DNA of 64,000 bases, from contig JAHJCU010000003.1 in the NCBI GenBank assembly GCA_018812925.1, forward strand, positions 1-64,000. Reading direction: 5' to 3'. Shown in pieces: positions 35,967 through 44,643 of the stretch. Origin of the DNA: Candidatus Omnitrophota bacterium. Lineage in GTDB: Bacteria; CAIJMQ01. Under the pieces are notes generated by a model. That model made no database searches. It worked only from the letters and a program-made list of their open reading frames with translations, and had not been told where the DNA came from. Position numbers and translations under genes: made by a program. Position 1 is the first letter of the stretch; each line of letters opens with the position of its first letter.

Positions 35967-38189
35967 TTGAAAAAACTCCGTGTAATCAATTCCTATACTA
36001 TCGGCTTTTTCACCATCGCAGTAATCGTTTTCCTTTATTTCGTCCCGATCGATTTCATTAACCAACTTGAACTGAAAACATTTGATTTAAGATTTAAAAT
36101 TTTTCAGGAAACAATTCCCTCGCAAAATATCGTTATCGTTACCATAGACAACAAGTCGGAAGATAAAATCGGACGATTCCCCTGGTCCAGAGACACATAT
36201 GCAAAGGTTATAGATAACTTAAATAAATGGGGCGCTAAAGTAATAGGAATAGATGTTCTTTTCTCGATGGCAGAAGATAATCCGTTATCGGAGGTTCTTA
36301 ATAAAACAGATTTAAAAGATAGGGTTTCCGAAGACCTTATAGAAGAATACAGGAAGAAATTCGATAACGATAAAATCTTGACTGATTCGATAAAAAAAGC
36401 CGGCAATGTAGTGCTTGGGTATTATTTTTTGACAGAGGGCGATGAGCAGGTAAAACACATTACGGAAGCTGAAAAACAAAAGGCAAAGAGATTAATCTCA
36501 AAAGCTCAAATTTCTTTGGTAAGTTCCGGTGTTAAAGGCGATGAGAAATTCCTCCTTCGCAGAGGATATGGAATAGAGACAAGTATTGAGCAAATATCTC
36601 GCGCTTGTAAAAACTACGGATTCTTAAACATATTCCCCGATTCGGATGGGGTCTTGAGAAAAGTCACGTTTCCGATGAAATATGAACACGAAAAAGACTG
36701 GTATGCTTCGTTCCCATTGCAGATATTAAAAAATTATTTTGATGAAAATATACAGCTCGGAGTTTCTAATAATGGCATATCAGCTCTTGCTTTGGGAGAA
36801 AAAATTATTCCCGTTGATGCGAGCGGGGCGTTATTTGTAGATTACAGCGTTAGTTCCCAATCTTTCCCTACCGAATCTTTTGTAGATGTTATGACCGGAA
36901 CAGTTGATAATCCCGCGAAATTCAAGGATAAAATTGTTCTAATAGGAATAACAGACCCGGGTCTTGTTCGTGATACCTGGCCTACGCCGACCGAGACGGT
37001 AGTCCCGGGCATAAAAATACACGCGCAGACAATAGATACTGTTCTTAATAACAGATTCATATCTTATGCCCGCACAATGATGAACGGTGAATTTGTGTAT
37101 TCTTCCGACGGAATAAACATTTTAAATCTTTTAGCCATAATTCTGTTAGGCGCAATACTAATTTTTGCTATTCCGAAAGTTTCTCAAGCAAGTTACGGAG
37201 CTTATATAAGTTTGTTGCTTGTTGCAGGTTATAGTTTTGCTGGGTTTTATTTATTTCATAATATGAAAATACGGCTAAATATGTTCTATCCGCTTTCAAG
37301 CATTGCTCTTGTTTATACGACACAGGCGCTTTACAGAGCGTTGACTACCGAACGAAAGGCGCGCGAAATAAGAGGCGCTTTCCAAACATATGTTCCTCCC
37401 CAAATTGTAGACGAACTTATAAAAAATCCCGAGAAATTAAAACTTGGCGGAGAAAGAAAAACTGTTTCGATACTTTATTCAGATGTAAAGGGTTTTACGA
37501 CTATCTCGGAGAAGCTTTCCCCTGAAGAACTTGTAGAATTTATGAATAATTATCTTACGCCAATGAGCGACATAGTGTTTAAATATGAAGGCACACTTGA
37601 TAAATATATCGGGGATGCTGTATTGGCTTTCTACGGCGCGCCATTGCCGCAGGAAGACCATCCTTTAAGAGTTGTCCTTTCGGCTTTGGATATGATAAGC
37701 GCTCTAAAAGAATTGCGGAAAAAATTAAAAGAAGAAAACAAACCCTCAATAGATGTAGGAATCGGTATCAATACGGGCGAAGTGTCCGTAGGAAACATGG
37801 GTTCTAAGATGCGGCTTGATTATACGATAATGGGGGATAATGTAAATCTTACCCAGCGGATAGAAGAATTGACCAGAATATATAAAAACAATATCTTACT
37901 AAGCGAATATACTTATCAAAAGATAAAAGAAAATATCGTTTGCAGAGAAATTGACGAAGTTACTGTAAGGGGAAAGACGCAAGGTGTAAAAATTTATGAA
38001 CCGATTTGCAGGAAGGAAGAAATAACTCCTGAAATCGAAAATATTGTTAAACATTTTGAAGCGGGGCTAAAACTTTATAAATCGGGTGAATTTTCTTCCG
38101 CAGGGAAAGAATTTTCACAAGTATTGCAAATTGTCCCTGAAGACGGTCCAAGTAAATATTATTTGGAGAAATGCAGACAAATTAAATAA
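35967..38189 (+). CDS. CHASE2-domain adenylate/guanylate cyclase
   Basis: IVIVTIDNKSEDKIGRFPWSRDTYAKVIDNL, C-term SILYSDVKGFTTISEKLSPEELVEFMNNYL, GDAVLAFYGAP, GIGINTGEVSVGNMGS. Confidence 0.95.
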   Translation: MKKLRVINSYTIGFFTIAVIVFLYFVPIDFINQLELKTFDLRFKIFQETIPSQNIVIVTIDNKSEDKIGRFPWSRDTYAKVIDNLNKWGAKVIGIDVLFSMAEDNPLSEVLNKTDLKDRVSEDLIEEYRKKFDNDKILTDSIKKAGNVVLGYYFLTEGDEQVKHITEAEKQKAKRLISKAQISLVSSGVKGDEKFLLRRGYGIETSIEQISRACKNYGFLNIFPDSDGVLRKVTFPMKYEHEKDWYASFPLQILKNYFDENIQLGVSNNGISALALGEKIIPVDASGALFVDYSVSSQSFPTESFVDVMTGTVDNPAKFKDKIVLIGITDPGLVRDTWPTPTETVVPGIKIHAQTIDTVLNNRFISYARTMMNGEFVYSSDGINILNLLAIILLGAILIFAIPKVSQASYGAYISLLLVAGYSFAGFYLFHNMKIRLNMFYPLSSIALVYTTQALYRALTTERKAREIRGAFQTYVPPQIVDELIKNPEKLKLGGERKTVSILYSDVKGFTTISEKLSPEELVEFMNNYLTPMSDIVFKYEGTLDKYIGDAVLAFYGAPLPQEDHPLRVVLSALDMISALKELRKKLKEENKPSIDVGIGINTGEVSVGNMGSKMRLDYTIMGDNVNLTQRIEELTRIYKNNILLSEYTYQKIKENIVCREIDEVTVRGKTQGVKIYEPICRKEEITPEIENIVKHFEAGLKLYKSGEFSSAGKEFSQVLQIVPEDGPSKYYLEKCRQIK

Positions 38190-38211: not shown

Positions 38212-38263
38212 AATTATCTGCTATCATGAACTCATTAAGAGTAACTGTTCAATGATATATATT
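38212..38263 (+). promoter_or_regulatory. 52-bp promoter/attI-like block, copy 1
   Basis: aattatctgctatcatgaactcattaagagtaactgttcaatgatatatatt; 47/52 identical to 42127-42178; extended -10 TGcTATCAT at 38219-38227; ends at the cassette-1 junction. Confidence 0.55.
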
Positions 38264-38277
38264 CGGTGGAGGAGAAA

Positions 38278-38796
38278 ATGAAGAAGAGTAACTGGATTGC
38301 CATCATTGCTCTTGTTGCTCTGGTCGCAGGCGAGGCTATTGCTGCCCCCGGAATGCAGAAGGTGGAATACCTGTCTGATTCAATCGCACAGAAGGACGGA
38401 AAGGTGATCAAACTTCTCGGTGGTTCAAGCTGGGTGTTGTCGTCACCGACTCTTGCGCTAGTGACTGACGACATCATCATTGTGTTTCAGGATGTCGTGT
38501 TGAAAAACAAGAAGACGGTAAAGGTAGCCATCGCCTACGTCGATGGTGACGAGATCATTGCGACTCATGCTGGCGGGACATACGCCACAAGCACCGGGTT
38601 CCTGACTGCCGTAGTCGAGTCACTGGGAGATGGTGCCGTCCTCAAGTTGGCGGACGGTTCACTCTTGTCCATTCCGCAGTATGACCGATACGACACGGGT
38701 TGGTGGTTGCCGCCATACAAAGCGCTGCTGACCGGCAATCGGATGTACCTCTGGAATCTGAAGAAAGGCAAGCGTGTCTGGGTCCAGATGAAGTAG
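38278..38796 (+). CDS. Cassette 1: secreted hypothetical protein, GC-rich codon usage
   Basis: RBS ggagg at 38268; MKKSNWIAIIALVALVAGEAIAAPG signal peptide. Confidence 0.8.
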   Translation: MKKSNWIAIIALVALVAGEAIAAPGMQKVEYLSDSIAQKDGKVIKLLGGSSWVLSSPTLALVTDDIIIVFQDVVLKNKKTVKVAIAYVDGDEIIATHAGGTYATSTGFLTAVVESLGDGAVLKLADGSLLSIPQYDRYDTGWWLPPYKALLTGNRMYLWNLKKGKRVWVQMK

Positions 38797-38801
38797 AAAC
38801 C

Positions 38802-38859
38802 ACCAAACCAAGCACTGCACGGTACGGCGTACCGCCGCCCGTGAGGGGCGACGTTAGAG
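38802..38859 (+). repeat. attC-like site 1
   Basis: ACCAAACCAAGCACTGCACGG...CCCGTGAGGGGCGACGTTAGAG; L'' GCACTGCACGG vs L' CCGTGAGGGGC imperfect inverted repeat; core GTTAGAG. Confidence 0.65.
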
Positions 38860-38869
38860 GTAAATAAAA

Positions 38870-39388
38870 ATGGATCCAATAGCATTTAGTTTACATATTC
38901 AAGACTTAGAAAATAAATGCAATTTGCCTCAAGGCTTTATGCATTCGCTACCAAATGAAAATGACTGGAGCTTTATCATTAAGACCTATGCTATTTTTGA
39001 AGCCTTGCTGTCTGAATTGATTGCTAAAATATCTGTTAAACCGGAATTGCGATCTTTTTTTCTGAAGCTCGATATGTGTTCGAATCCTATTGGTAAATTA
39101 GCTTTGTTAAAAAAGTTATCGCTACTAGAGGAACCTGAATGTAAATTCATACGTGCTTTATCTGATTTACGAAATATTTACGCGCACAATATTAAAAAGA
39201 TTTCAGCCTCCATAGAAGATACCATCGTTTCATTCCCATCTGATAAACAAAAAAAGATAGTTCAAGATTTGAGTTTTAGTTTGCACAAAAAAGATGATTT
39301 CGAAAAAAATAAAAAACAATGCATTTGGGTTGCGTCAGTTATGTTGTTGTGTCAAATAAATGAAAGAACGTATAAGAAAACTCTATAA
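38870..39388 (+). CDS. Cassette 2: HEPN-like hypothetical protein
   Basis: All-helical appearance; LSDLRNIYAHNI = R-x4-H HEPN signature. Confidence 0.7.
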   Translation: MDPIAFSLHIQDLENKCNLPQGFMHSLPNENDWSFIIKTYAIFEALLSELIAKISVKPELRSFFLKLDMCSNPIGKLALLKKLSLLEEPECKFIRALSDLRNIYAHNIKKISASIEDTIVSFPSDKQKKIVQDLSFSLHKKDDFEKNKKQCIWVASVMLLCQINERTYKKTL

Positions 39389-39467
39389 CAAATCAATCGA
39401 GCGGACAATCCTCGCCGCTAAATCGGATTCGGGAAGGCTCGTCACGCCGCTGATTTTTATGTTATAG
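39383..39467 (+). repeat. attC-like site 2
   Basis: CTATAAC(39383-39389)...GTTATAG(39461-39467) perfect inverted core sites; AACAAATCAATCGAGCGGAC...GCCGCTGATTTTTAT arms. Confidence 0.85.
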
Positions 39468-39480
39468 GAAAAAATGAAAA

Positions 39481-40119
39481 ATGAATATAACTCCTAATAT
39501 TCTCAAAAACAAGTTTGAAATGAGTGCGAAAGATATAAATACGTGGATATTAAATAAAGACTGGGCTTTCGATATAGATTTCGATAACGGGAAAATTAGC
39601 TTATTTCGTGAAAGAAACAAAAATGAATATACCTGTAGATTTGCTCCAAAAGGCATTGAAGTTTGTTACTTGGCACAAGACCCCGTTGAAAGAGAAAAAG
39701 AAGTAGGCGGTTCGAAACAAACAAAAAAAGTATATTTTATTAATAAAAATTTAAGAATTATTGATTTAAATTTACAGGGTCCAACTAACAGAGTAAATGA
39801 TATAAAAAAATCATTTAAAGGCCTCGAAAAATTAGTAGGCGGAAAAAGAAGCAAAGAAAACTATAAGGATAGTTGTTTATTTGCAAAACACGCAATAGAG
39901 GCAGGATTTGATGGCATTTATTATTCTGTACACCCAGATGAAAAACACACTAGTGAGTTTCAGGAGAAAGTTATTGAAACAATTAAAAAAACAAGCCCCC
40001 ACTTTGAGTTTAATAACGCTATGGGCCCTAAAGAACGACTTGTGATTTTTAAAAATAATAAAGAGATAATAAGCTTTGCTAAAGATAAATATCAAGACCA
40101 AATAAAGTTTGAAAAATAA
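39481..40119 (+). CDS. Cassette 3 gene a: RES-domain-like protein
   Basis: CRFAPKGIEVCYLAQDP...KVYFINKNLRIIDLN...CLFAKHAIEAGFDGIYYSV resembles the RES-family layout. Confidence 0.55.
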   Translation: MNITPNILKNKFEMSAKDINTWILNKDWAFDIDFDNGKISLFRERNKNEYTCRFAPKGIEVCYLAQDPVEREKEVGGSKQTKKVYFINKNLRIIDLNLQGPTNRVNDIKKSFKGLEKLVGGKRSKENYKDSCLFAKHAIEAGFDGIYYSVHPDEKHTSEFQEKVIETIKKTSPHFEFNNAMGPKERLVIFKNNKEIISFAKDKYQDQIKFEK

Positions 40120-40122
40120 ATT

Positions 40123-40641
40123 ATGGCAAAAATAATTGCTTTTAAGAAATGGCACATATCTCTAGATGACAACAAGGGAGTCACTTTGGACCTTCCCTAT
40201 CCTGAAAAATTTGAAAATAACGAAGAAAAAGAAAAGTACGAAAAGGCAAAAAATATGGAAGCCCCTACACTCCTCATAGAGAATAAATTTCTATTTGGAG
40301 AATGGCTATTTGAATTAAATAACTATGAAAGAACACTGGATGATGAAAAGATTAAATTAATACTGTTGGAAGCCATAGATAAAGAAAGAAAAAAATTTGA
40401 ACGATTAAAGAAAAAATTCTCAACTCAATATTCTACCGATGAGATTAAAAGAAAAAGTATCCCTGAAGAAGTTCGCATCTTTGTATGGAGACGAGATGGT
40501 GGTCGCTGTGTAGAATGCAATAGCCAAGAAAATTTAGAGTTTGACCATATAATTCCTGTGAGCCAAGGAGGCTCTAGCACTGCCAGAAATATTCAACTGT
40601 TATGTGAAAAATGTAATCGACAAAAAAGCAATAAAATATAA
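40123..40641 (+). CDS. Cassette 3 gene b: HNH endonuclease
   Basis: RRDGGRCVECNSQENLEFDHIIPVSQGGSSTARNIQLLCEKCNRQKSNKI. Confidence 0.93.
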   Translation: MAKIIAFKKWHISLDDNKGVTLDLPYPEKFENNEEKEKYEKAKNMEAPTLLIENKFLFGEWLFELNNYERTLDDEKIKLILLEAIDKERKKFERLKKKFSTQYSTDEIKRKSIPEEVRIFVWRRDGGRCVECNSQENLEFDHIIPVSQGGSSTARNIQLLCEKCNRQKSNKI

Positions 40642-40651
40642 AGAGGATTTT

Positions 40652-40789
40652 ATGAAATGCTCAATATGTGGCGAAGAACAAGTATCTACTTGCGAAAGAC
40701 CTATTACTCTTGGTGGTCTAGGAGAAGCAAAAACTCAACCAATTTGTGATGATTGTTATGCTAAAATGTTAGAAAATGAGGAGGGATAA
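40652..40789 (+). CDS. Cassette 3 gene c: 45-aa zinc-ribbon-like protein
   Basis: MKCSICGEEQVSTCERPITLGGLGEAKTQPICDDCYAKMLENEEG; CxxC...CxxC; gaggat upstream. Confidence 0.7.
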   Translation: MKCSICGEEQVSTCERPITLGGLGEAKTQPICDDCYAKMLENEEG

Positions 40790-40791
40790 CA

Positions 40792-41220
40792 ATGTTCAAA
40801 GATTATTCTTTTGAAATTGAACAGATTAAGGAATCGCTTTCTTCTATAAAAGATAAGATCGATAAAATAGAAAAACTTATAGTAGGCACATCAGATGATA
40901 TTAATTTTGTGAAAAGTCATTTTGGATTAGAGCATAATTTTAGAAAAGGAAAACGAACAAAATATGATATAACACGGTTAATCCATTGGATTTTACTAAA
41001 GAATAAAGACATAAAAGATGAACAAGTATTTAATCAAATAATTGATTTTATAGCTACAATGGATGATAAAAAATTCAACTTCACACTCCATAATGATGAT
41101 AAAAATAAAAAAGCTAAAGAAGAATATAATATATGGAGAGATGAAATTAAGAATGAATGGTTGGAAGAGATTAAATGGGTAAGAGAAGAAATTGAGGCAG
41201 ATAAAGTGGGAAATAAATAA
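40792..41220 (+). CDS. Cassette 3 gene d: hypothetical protein with N-terminal coiled coil
   Basis: EIEQIKESLSSIKDKIDKIEKLI heptad-like; starts 3 nt after gene c. Confidence 0.7.
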   Translation: MFKDYSFEIEQIKESLSSIKDKIDKIEKLIVGTSDDINFVKSHFGLEHNFRKGKRTKYDITRLIHWILLKNKDIKDEQVFNQIIDFIATMDDKKFNFTLHNDDKNKKAKEEYNIWRDEIKNEWLEEIKWVREEIEADKVGNK

Positions 41221-41223
41221 AAT

Positions 41224-41303
41224 TTATAACAACTCAATCCAGCGGATAATCCTCGCCGCTTCTTCAGCTGGAGGCTCGGTTTGCCGCTCATTTTATGTTA
41301 AAT
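41224..41303 (+). repeat. attC-like site 3
   Basis: TTATAACAACTCAATCCAGCGGATAATCCTCGCCGCTT...GCCGCTCATTTTATGTTAAAT; strongly similar to attC 2. Confidence 0.82.
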
Positions 41304-41889
41304 GAAAAATAAAAATGACAATAATCTGGAGGACCAAATGCCTAACAAGACAAAAAATTTGATATATCAAGCTTTACCCGCTTTGATTAATGGCGCAGAA
41401 TCAATTTCATGGAATAGGTTTAATAATTTTCTCCTATTCAATTCCATTCTAATATTAGCATGGGCAACTATTTATGCGAATATCAATGAAGAAATCACTA
41501 CCAACCACTCTTTTTTATTAGGCGGTATTTGTATATTAGGTCTCGCCATAAGCTTCATTTGGTGTGCATTAGGTTTCCGGGGCAGAAGTAACGTTGACTT
41601 ATTTCTTAAAATAGGGAAAGCTATTGAGTCGAATTATCCAGAGGGTCATAAACCAATCACGGAGGCGGCAAAATTGAGAGATACGCAGCCTTTCTCATGG
41701 AGCGGATCAACTTATATACTCACTATAACCCCTCTCTTAATAGCATTGCTCTATACATTATTTTTGTGGTTCTCAATTCCAAAATTAATAATCAAAACAA
41801 TTTTTTTAACAGTATCAATTATACTCATTATTGTTTTTATTTGTCTTACACTGGGATATATCAAGAGAAGGCATTCGAAGAAGTGTTGA
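41302..41889 (+). CDS. Cassette 4: multi-TM hypothetical membrane protein
   Basis: ATG in or near the attC junction; TM segments; FRGRSNVDLFLKIGKAIES, FSWSGSTYILTITPLLIALLY. Confidence 0.7.
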   Translation: MKNKNDNNLEDQMPNKTKNLIYQALPALINGAESISWNRFNNFLLFNSILILAWATIYANINEEITTNHSFLLGGICILGLAISFIWCALGFRGRSNVDLFLKIGKAIESNYPEGHKPITEAAKLRDTQPFSWSGSTYILTITPLLIALLYTLFLWFSIPKLIIKTIFLTVSIILIIVFICLTLGYIKRRHSKKC

Positions 41890-41942
41890 AAATTGTCCCT
41901 GAAGACGGTCCGAGTAAATATTATTTGGAGAAAAGCAAATAA
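41880..41942 (+). pseudogene. Remnant of a CHASE2-cyclase-like 3' end
   Basis: Frame of ORF 41697-41942: AFEEVLKIVPEDGPSKYYLEKSK vs EFSQVLQIVPEDGPSKYYLEKCRQIK at the end of 35967-38189. Confidence 0.75.
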
Positions 41943-41968
41943 AATTCAAAAGTCAAAATGCAAAATGC

Positions 41969-42030
41969 CCTTAGAGATTGAAAACAATCTCAAGGACTTT
42001 AGTCCCGGAAATTCTCTGAATTTCTCGGGG
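41969..42030. repeat. Double stem-loop in the non-coding gap
   Basis: CCTTaGAGATTG-aaaa-CAATCTCAAGG (41969-41995) and CCCGgAAATTC-tct-GAATTTctCGGG (42004-42029). Confidence 0.55.
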
Positions 42031-42113
42031 CAAAATTACAAAGCAAAATTCAAAATCTCAAAAGATTATAAAAAAATTTATATTTAATGTTTGATTTAAG
42101 AGCTAGAACTTCT

Positions 42114-42178
42114 TTGACGCATATAAAATTATCTGCTACCATGAACTAATTAAGACTAACTGTTCAATGATGTATGTT
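42114..42178 (+). promoter_or_regulatory. Promoter plus 52-bp attI-like block, copy 2
   Basis: TTGACG(42114-42119)-N17-TACCAT(42137-42142), extended TGc; block 42127-42178 is 47/52 identical to 38212-38263; ends at junction GTTATAT. Confidence 0.6.
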
Positions 42179-42180
42179 AT

Positions 42181-42576
42181 ATGAATAAAAAGATTAAAAA
42201 TAAATTAATAAATTTACCCATAGCATTGTTATTACTGCTTGGCGGAATTTTGACATTTATAATCACCCAGCAAGGGATAGATGATTTATTCTCTACGATT
42301 ATTTATATAGCTTTTGGCATCCTTTTTGTTCTATCTAGCATAACTTTGGTAGGATCAATTTCAAAACGCAGTTATTTATTAACAATCACAACGTGTTCTT
42401 TATATATGCTGTTTTTTTTAGGGATCACTACTTATATTTTAAAAACAGATAAAACAGGACAAGGCCTAGTAGGTTTAATGTTTCTTGTGCCTCAGGCAGC
42501 CATAAGTTTATTAGCAGTTCTTTTTTCAATTTTTAGATTGAAAAATATAAATCATATAACAAGTCAATCCAGCTGA
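42181..42576 (+). CDS. Cassette 5: multi-TM hypothetical protein (stop codon inside attC)
   Basis: ORF start overlaps the junction GTTATAT; ends ...NHITSQSS* within attC 4. Confidence 0.7.
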   Translation: MNKKIKNKLINLPIALLLLLGGILTFIITQQGIDDLFSTIIYIAFGILFVLSSITLVGSISKRSYLLTITTCSLYMLFFLGITTYILKTDKTGQGLVGLMFLVPQAAISLLAVLFSIFRLKNINHITSQSS

Positions 42577-42626
42577 CCCTTCACGCCGCTTGCAGCGTGA
42601 AGGGTCAGCTGATTTTTGTATTAGTT
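42554..42626 (+). repeat. attC-like site 4
   Basis: ATATAACAAGTCAATCC + perfect 16-bp stem AGCTGACCCTTCACGC(42571-42586)/GCGTGAAGGGTCAGCT(42595-42610) + GATTTTTGTATTAGTT. Confidence 0.78.
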
Positions 42627-42642
42627 TGAAAGGAGAAACAAG

Positions 42643-43122
42643 ATGAAGAAGATTCTGTCTATGATTTTCCTTGCTCTATTGTGTGGAGTATGCGGGAATA
42701 CATCGGTTCAGCAAGTGAATACTATTGACCAAAACGTTACGATTGAATTGTCGGTCAGAATGGAAGTCAATGGTAATATTGAGGATTCACATAATACCCA
42801 ATTCATCATAACAAAAGGAAGTGCGATTCCTGCTAGTTTGACCCTCAAATCAGACAGTAATGTCACTGTGACTTTTACAGACTTTCGTCTTGAAGACGAG
42901 AAGGTTCTATTTGGCGCATGGGGGTTTGATGGGTTCGCTAACCTGTCATCCAAGAGCGGAACAAAGGGTACTGCCTGGCCTTATAACGCTCAGCAATCAG
43001 GCGGTTTCTCTATTCCCGTTGATGGAAGCAAGGAACTGGATAAATTGCTGACTTGGTACGAGACGGAGATCAACGACGAACTGATGAAAGCCTATGTGAC
43101 CATGAATATGAGGACAAACTAA
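42643..43122 (+). CDS. Cassette 6: secreted hypothetical protein
   Basis: RBS aaaggaga; MKKILSMIFLALLCGVCG N-terminal signal. Confidence 0.75.
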   Translation: MKKILSMIFLALLCGVCGNTSVQQVNTIDQNVTIELSVRMEVNGNIEDSHNTQFIITKGSAIPASLTLKSDSNVTVTFTDFRLEDEKVLFGAWGFDGFANLSSKSGTKGTAWPYNAQQSGGFSIPVDGSKELDKLLTWYETEINDELMKAYVTMNMRTN

Positions 43123-43188
43123 CAACCGCCTGCAACATATTTGCTGAAAGCTGCGCTTTCAGCAAAATGCTGAGGCGAAACATTATAG
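43117..43188 (+). repeat. attC-like site 5 (array end)
   Basis: AACTAACAACCGCCTGCAACA...TGCTGAGGCGAAACATTATAG; inner 12-bp stem TTTGCTGAAAGC/GCTTTCAGCAAA. Confidence 0.8.
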
Positions 43189-43332
43189 GAAAAAGTTTGA
43201 GAGTAGATTCCATTAAAACCCCGAAAACTCATCTTTCGTTTGTAACGGGGCAAGCAAGGATTGGAACTGTTACCTTCTCTTCATATACATAGCAAGAGAC
43301 TTTACTATTTTCCCGATAATAGTTTCACTTAA

Positions 43333-43362
43333 TTGACACCCTGTATAAGACTAACTTAAAAT
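43333..43362 (+). promoter_or_regulatory. Candidate sigma70-type promoter upstream of the histidine kinase
   Basis: TTGACA-N18-TAAAAT. Confidence 0.45.
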
Positions 43363-43425
43363 ATCTTTTGTTTTGAATTTGCTGTTTTTTACAATGGTTT
43401 AAATTTTGTAGTATGAGAAGAAAAA

Positions 43426-44643
43426 ATGTTTAGAGAAAGAAAGTCATCATTAACGAAAGAACTTGCTACTCTGCACCGAGTTTCAAAATTCATCGATTCA
43501 ATAACCGACCTGAAAGAACTACTTAAACTGATTATGGAGGAAAGCAAGAATGTTGTAAATGCAGAAGCAAGTTCTCTTCTTTTATACGATAGAGAAAAAG
43601 ATGAATTGTATTTTGAAGTTGCGTTGGGCAAGAAAGGGGGCAAGGTAAAAGAAATTCGGCTTAAAACAGGTGAAGGCGTTGCAGGAACTGTTGCTAAAAA
43701 GAAAAAATCCATAAATATAGGTAATGTCGAAAAAAATAATATGTGGGATAGCAGCGCTGATAAAACATCAGGGTTTAAAACGCGTTCGCTGCTTGCTGTT
43801 CCAATGTTCAGAAAAAATGAACTTGTAGGTGTGATAGAGGTTCTGAATAAAAAAGGTTCTAAAAATTTTTCTAATGAAGATGTTCGCATTATGGAGATAT
43901 TGGCTGAACAAGCAGCTTTATGCATTGAGAATGCCAGATTATATGAAGAGAGTTTAAGAGCGGCGCGGATGGCGGCCATCGGACAAACAATGGCGGAATT
44001 ATCGCATTACATAAAAAATGTTTTGGCGGGTTTCGAAGGAGCCGGCTATCTTCTTGAATCGGGGTTGCAAAAAGAAAACCGTGAAATGATAGAACAAGGA
44101 TGGTCTTTTTTGAAGAAAAGTCAGGAAAAAATATCCACTCTTGTTATGAATATGTTGAGTTATTCCAAAGAGAAAAAGCTTTCTTTTAATTTATATGATA
44201 TTAATAAAGTTATATCGGATGTGGTGTCGTTGATGGCGCCGCGGTTAAAAGAAAAATCCATAACTATCGAGAAAAATTTAGATAAGAATATAAAAGAAAT
44301 AGTAATTGACTCCGACGGGATTTACAACTGTGTTCTTAACCTGATATCTAATGCGATGGAAGCTATGGAAAGTGAAAATGGTAAAATAACGGTAAGCACG
44401 CTGAATGATGAAAAGAATAAACAGGTTAAAATAGAAATCAAAGATAATGGGAACGGTATCCCCAAAGATAAAATTAATGATGTGTTTAGTCTTTTCTATT
44501 CATCAAAGAAAAAGGGTACGGGGCTGGGTTTAGCGGTAACGAAAAAAATAATCGACGAACATAAAGGGGAAATTTTAGTAGAGTCGAAAGAAGGAAAGGG
44601 AACAACGTTTACGATTGTTTTGTCTGCTGATACAAACAAATAA
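43426..44643 (+). CDS. GAF-domain sensor histidine kinase
   Basis: GAF (LIMEESKNVVNAEASSLLLYD...), LSHYIKNVLAGFEG H-box, NLISNAMEAM, DNGNGIPKDKI, GTGLGLAVTKKIIDEH. Confidence 0.93.
   Translation: MFRERKSSLTKELATLHRVSKFIDSITDLKELLKLIMEESKNVVNAEASSLLLYDREKDELYFEVALGKKGGKVKEIRLKTGEGVAGTVAKKKKSINIGNVEKNNMWDSSADKTSGFKTRSLLAVPMFRKNELVGVIEVLNKKGSKNFSNEDVRIMEILAEQAALCIENARLYEESLRAARMAAIGQTMAELSHYIKNVLAGFEGAGYLLESGLQKENREMIEQGWSFLKKSQEKISTLVMNMLSYSKEKKLSFNLYDINKVISDVVSLMAPRLKEKSITIEKNLDKNIKEIVIDSDGIYNCVLNLISNAMEAMESENGKITVSTLNDEKNKQVKIEIKDNGNGIPKDKINDVFSLFYSSKKKGTGLGLAVTKKIIDEHKGEILVESKEGKGTTFTIVLSADTNK

Follow-up and report, generated by a model that had tools for sequence, protein, structure and literature searches.

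The analysed window comprises bases 1-64000 of contig C10 of genome G000, a metagenome assembly of 1.47 Mb in 14 contigs that is 92% complete. The comparison set contained six close relatives, namely G001 and G002 of the same genus, G003 of the family and three genomes of the class; all other genomes shared only the domain. The completeness of the metagenome assemblies ranges from 64 to 96% (96% for G001, the sister genome of G000). Between a cyclase gene and a kinase gene, the window carries six gene cassettes, five attC repeats and two copies of an attI-like block, arranged as follows:

35967-38189, + strand: CHASE2/adenylate cyclase-type gene (ORF), the left flank; its ortholog in G001 is followed by the same attI-like block
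38212-38261, + strand: attI-like block, copy 1; crossover at 38261/38262, A^TT and not G^TT; homology ends there
38262-38853, + strand: cassette 1, with an ORF (38266-38796) and the degenerate attC1 (38800-38860)
38854-39461, + strand: cassette 2, with an ORF (38870-39388) and attC2 (39383-39467)
39462-41297, + strand: cassette 3 (1.8 kb), with four ORFs and attC3 (41223-41304)
41298-41889, + strand: cassette 4, encoding a membrane protein (8xMP-like, below cut-off); attC lost
41864-41952, + strand: degenerate copy of the cyclase gene 3' end (81% over 89 bp; 90% in the best 63 bp)
42114-42176, + strand: attI-like block, copy 2, with TTGACG-17-TACCAT and a TG extension; crossover at 42176/42177
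42177-42620, + strand: cassette 5, encoding a small membrane protein; attC4 (42553-42628), A^TT at the crossover
42621-43182, + strand: cassette 6, encoding a secreted protein; attC5 (43115-43189), A^TT at the crossover
43183-44643, + strand: right flank, intergenic DNA and a GAF-histidine kinase gene (43426-44643), homologous to G001 from the crossover

The ORF of cassette 1 encodes a secreted protein of no known family, without a Pfam match, and that of cassette 2 shows weak HEPN similarity (PF18730, E 0.01, below the cut-off). The ORFs of cassette 3 comprise (i) a RES-like protein (weak similarity), (ii) an HNH endonuclease (PF01844, E 7e-14), (iii) a small zinc-binding-like protein and (iv) one unassigned product. 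The ORF of cassette 4 runs at 41864 into the copy of the cyclase gene end, which is followed by the second attI-like block; the attC of this cassette is therefore gone.

The five repeats had been described in the initial annotation as attC sites lying on one strand and separating short, unrelated same-strand ORFs. All were found again at these positions, as was the motif ATAACAAnTCAATCnAGCnGA...CGCCGCT common to repeats 2-4, and the R''/L''/L'/R' architecture was borne out by box pairing, a covariance model and the self-complementarity of the cassettes. Three of the sites (attC2, attC3 and attC4) are strong, while the outer repeats, attC1 and attC5, are degenerate. In the strong sites R'' pairs with R' and L'' with L', with one extra base, bulged out in the fold, on the L'' side. 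Folding of the bottom strand as DNA gave negative z values for all five repeats (attC1 -1.3, attC2 -3.3, attC3 -1.1, attC4 -7.8, attC5 -5.8). The drawn structure was checked on 15 attC sites taken from G000, its relatives and viral contigs: 77.6% of cells are paired, compared with 20-43% when it is slid by up to 3 columns, and compensatory changes are present. On the top strand, the attC4 hairpin followed by ATTTTT (42570-42611) also fits the pattern of an intrinsic terminator.

The covariance model was built in this analysis from attC-like sites of G000, its relatives and viral contigs, together with further matches (R2). In the 64 kb window (filters off) it matched attC2, attC3 and attC4 at 47.7, 43.5 and 49.2 bits (E <= 1e-9), these three being training rows of the model whose own scores are not independent; the next-best match was repeat 1 itself (12 bits, E 0.9). 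Independent support for the model comes from the attC sites that it found next to genuine intI genes of unrelated genomes, on the intI contig itself in G093:C304, G091:C28 and G092:C64. Control genomes with intI yielded up to 37 model sites in one genome and zero in several others, and control genomes without intI yielded at most one weak match of ~29 bits. Neither attC1 nor attC5 received a meaningful score; both are real though degenerate, on the basis of their self-complementarity (5/6 and 6/6 informative positions) and not of the model. Rfam gave no meaningful match to the array region, and a scan for paired R''/R' arms alone did not separate attC from chance.

In integrons, the crossover falls between the G and the TT of the core site, so that each cassette starts with TTRRRY and carries an R'' complementary to this start. 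In 13 cassettes of G000 and G001, with the TT itself excluded, 62 of 78 positions pair between the cassette start and its own R'', compared with a permutation mean of 30 and with none of 200,000 shuffles reaching 62; the cassette boundaries were set by hand and the exact p-value should not be pressed, although the contrast is large. When R'' was compared with the start of the next cassette, i.e. the sequence truly following the attC, only 29/72 positions paired, against 57/72 for the cassette's own start. Within the window, the start of cassette 1 (TTCGGTGG) pairs with R'' (CCACCAAAC), that of cassette 5 (TTATATGA) pairs at 6/6 positions with its own R'', and that of cassette 6 (TTAGTTTG) at 6/6 with R'' (CAAACTAAC). 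The limits of the array coincide exactly with G^TT-type crossover points, at 38261/38262 and 43182/43183. At the right end, G000 and G001 are 86% identical over 100 bp from the crossover onward and unrelated to the left of it.

The array is headed by a block of ~50-65 bp that ends at the crossover and that the initial annotation had missed. Four copies are present in the sister genomes: two in the window, one in G001:C32 and one in G001:C22, the two in G001 being followed by unrelated cassettes. To the left of the crossover the four are 82-90% identical across 50 bp, and to its right the identity is 19-42%; copy 2 and the G001:C22 block share 89% over 69 bp. In G001:C32 (near 4300), a partial fifth copy with approximately the final 14 bases is found between cassettes. 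Two copies begin with TTGACG-17-TATCAT/TACCAT with TG before the -10 part, the latter being present in all four, while copies adjoining the cyclase gene keep the -10 only. Judged from its position and its boundary at the crossover, the block looks like an attI site; its putative extended -10 promoter would serve as the cassette promoter Pc. In favour of the promoter there is only the fact that the block is conserved; promoter matches are about as numerous in the region as in shuffled sequence (19 vs 18). In the window, copy 2 comes directly after the cyclase-end fragment; it interrupts the array and stands in place of the attC of cassette 4, features likewise overlooked in the initial annotation. 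The exact pattern of the block was absent from 2.9 million viral contigs, the block was not found in plasmid records, and the array had no match in phage records.

Comparison with the relatives bore out the cassette turnover anticipated in the initial annotation, and the order of the ORFs is not conserved: related genomes are empty at the locus or carry other cassettes. Neither G002 nor G003 has an array here: after the cyclase gene comes leuC in G002 and, with hardly any spacer, the kinase gene in G003. In G001, the array begins at the same place as in G000 and ends before the kinase gene; it is spread over two contigs with overlapping sequence. For each of the nine G000 cassette ORFs, the G001 arrays contain no relative. 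The base before the crossover has changed from G to A in ~4/11 junctions of G000 and in 0/~15 of G001 (hand count; Fisher p ~0.02), which looks like decay in G000.

A second array of G000, also missed earlier, lies between an RND efflux gene and valS (C11, 198694-201400, i.e. 198.7-201.4 kb; L203 2195-5300). Its cargo includes a beta-lactamase-family hydrolase (PF00144), a C39-like peptidase and other cassettes, and the same locus of G001 holds different ones. At its right end, the flank TTATACTTCC... starts exactly after the G in both sister genomes (91%). The cyclase-end copy at 41864 and a copy of the RND gene end next to valS were initially read as insertions accompanied by duplication of gene ends; for the RND copy this was dropped, as G002 has another RND gene right before valS, and the copy would more simply be the remnant of a second RND gene.

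Small arrays are dispersed in G001, G004 and G005, with further G001 arrays on C22, C34 and C12 and several in G005. A cassette protein in G001:C12 (L214 140-1027) has PADLOC matches to the anti-phage proteins PD-T7-1 (E 1e-15) and PD-T7-5. REP-like GGGGACAG.CACC elements and a REP-associated transposase gene are inserted in arrays (L068 2900-4350, in G001:C32; L069 2255-2290), apparently interrupting one attC and one attI-like block. The G005:C287 array (L072 2600-5544), from another family of the class, carries toxin-antitoxin-like cassettes, with no intI above the cut-off in G005.

The window contains no tyrosine recombinase gene, as had been noted from the sequence. Searching all of G000 with PF00589 returned two proteins, its only tyrosine recombinases, encoded on contigs C1 and C4 and identified by NCBIfam as XerD and XerC. 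These also gave the best scores in G000 with the integron integrase model TIGR02249, below its cut-off of 265 bits, and none of the seven genomes G000-G006 had a protein above it. Aligned with eight IntI proteins, XerC and XerD lack the IntI-specific patch segment. No remnant of intI was detected in the array regions at E <= 0.1, and the other recombinases of G002 and G003 are phage-like or unrelated in appearance. No intI above the cut-off lies next to the attI-like blocks in G000, as it would in a complete integron. The absence of intI rests on draft metagenome assemblies and is hence not proven; with none found, we infer that the integrase was lost or is supplied in trans.

In the established integron pathway, IntI recombines the folded bottom strand of attC with double-stranded attI. 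We consider it likely that the region is a CALIN-type cassette array, in which the cassettes were inserted by an integrase whose gene is no longer present, and which is ancestral to G000 and G001 and later underwent turnover and damage. The attC structure, the pairing of cassette starts with their own R'', the exact boundaries, the sister array at the same point, the empty locus of G002 and G003, the turnover of cassettes and the lack of a detectable intI in the assemblies all argue for this reading. An integron integrase would have inserted folded single-stranded cassettes at attI, beside the promoter, and the array would already have been at this locus in the common ancestor of G000 and G001. 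The cassettes would then have been wholly replaced in at least one lineage, and the integrase subsequently lost or acting from elsewhere. In G000, the damage would comprise a duplication of the head region (cyclase end with attI/promoter), the loss of the cassette 4 attC and the change of several crossover bases from G to A.

The integrase could still be present, either in a part of the genome that was not assembled or on a plasmid left out of the bin, in which case the integron would be complete but split. The G000 assembly is 92% complete, arrays break contigs in G001 (C32/C91, C12/C24), and draft genomes overstate CALINs (PMC9024848). However, no intI was found in G000, in the 96% complete G001 or in five further relatives, and the contigs extend leftward beyond the attI-like blocks, into DNA other than intI. 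We regard a missed integrase as unlikely.

A reading that appears more doubtful still is a platform served in trans, with attI/promoter blocks kept at several places and integrases brought on other elements exchanging the cassettes. This would agree with the presence of the block at two loci in each sister genome with different cassettes after each, with the full turnover despite both sisters lacking a detectable intI, and with the small arrays dispersed in three genomes. The decay-like crossover bases of G000, not seen in G001, speak against it, as does the absence of the array from phage records and of the block from plasmid records. That the lineage keeps several integrase-free platforms, reloaded and reshuffled by trans-acting integrases in a genus-wide exchange without a resident intI, is similarly improbable.

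Movement of the cassettes by the host XerC/XerD, with the block as a dif-like site, has hardly any likelihood: these are the only tyrosine recombinases of G000 and G001, but they lack the IntI patch, no dif-like 11-6-11 sites flank the modules, and the block, which agrees with dif at 5-9/17 positions in register and nowhere better than shuffles, does not resemble the probable dif of the genus (AGTTATCATAAGATATATTATGTTAACT, at G000:C6:58712-58739, conserved in G001, G002 and G003). That the repeats are terminator or REP hairpins of the usual kind, lying between the genes of an operon, is a reading for which the terminator-like attC4 and the REP-like elements near some arrays might be cited; it is refuted by the boundary and pairing tests, the empty sites and the model matches beside true intI genes, and its probability is negligible.

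The preferred reading, a CALIN-type array, is in line with one half of the In0/CALIN label proposed in the initial annotation. An In0 is an integron integrase without cassettes, the reverse of what was found here, while CALINs are attC clusters without an integron integrase, and are frequent and widely distributed (PMC9024848, PMC9668308). By definition they have two or more attC sites, each within less than 4 kb of its neighbour, and no integron integrase nearby; the window has three model-scored sites within 3.2 kb and five attC in total, with no integrase nearby. The attC structure and crossover point are likewise those of CALINs. In contrast to them, a conserved attI-like site with a putative promoter heads the array and is repeated at several loci, and the genome yielded no intI.

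Sedentary integrons of Xanthomonas show intI loss and CALINs at recurring loci (PMC12444791), and resemble the present case in their ancestral locus, lineage-specific integrase loss and recurring chromosomal places of CALINs. However, in Xanthomonas damaged intI genes can be seen and the arrays stabilise once intI is inactivated, whereas here the sister genomes share no cassette and no remnant was detected. In class 1 and 2 integrons, attI or a truncated attI occurs inside arrays (PMC12901181); similarly, a copy of the attI-like site or its last bases lies between cassettes here and can replace an attC, but the internal copy of G000 is accompanied by part of the host gene from upstream. Cassettes at attG genome sites, as these are cited in PMC12444791 and PMC12901181, likewise form arrays away from the intI platform, although here a conserved module, and not an arbitrary genome site, lies left of the first cassette. 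What is unusual is the retention of an attI/promoter-like module at several loci without any detected intI, together with full turnover between sisters in which no intI was found.

In bacterial genomes, integrase-less arrays occur about as often as complete integrons. The sister pair, with two common array loci, different cassettes, an attI-like site and no integrase found, bears on the question of whether such arrays are dead remains or platforms in use. With further genomes of the lineage, such a pair makes it possible to ask whether the cassettes were exchanged before or after the integrase disappeared. The analysis also adds integron arrays for a rarely sampled, uncultured bacterial lineage (seven genomes of the class among those compared), with cargo comprising toxin-antitoxin, HEPN, HNH, beta-lactamase-family and possible anti-phage genes. 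Several attC sites of the same family are carried by IMG/VR contigs filed as viral (L169, L170 and L171), with at least five in L171.
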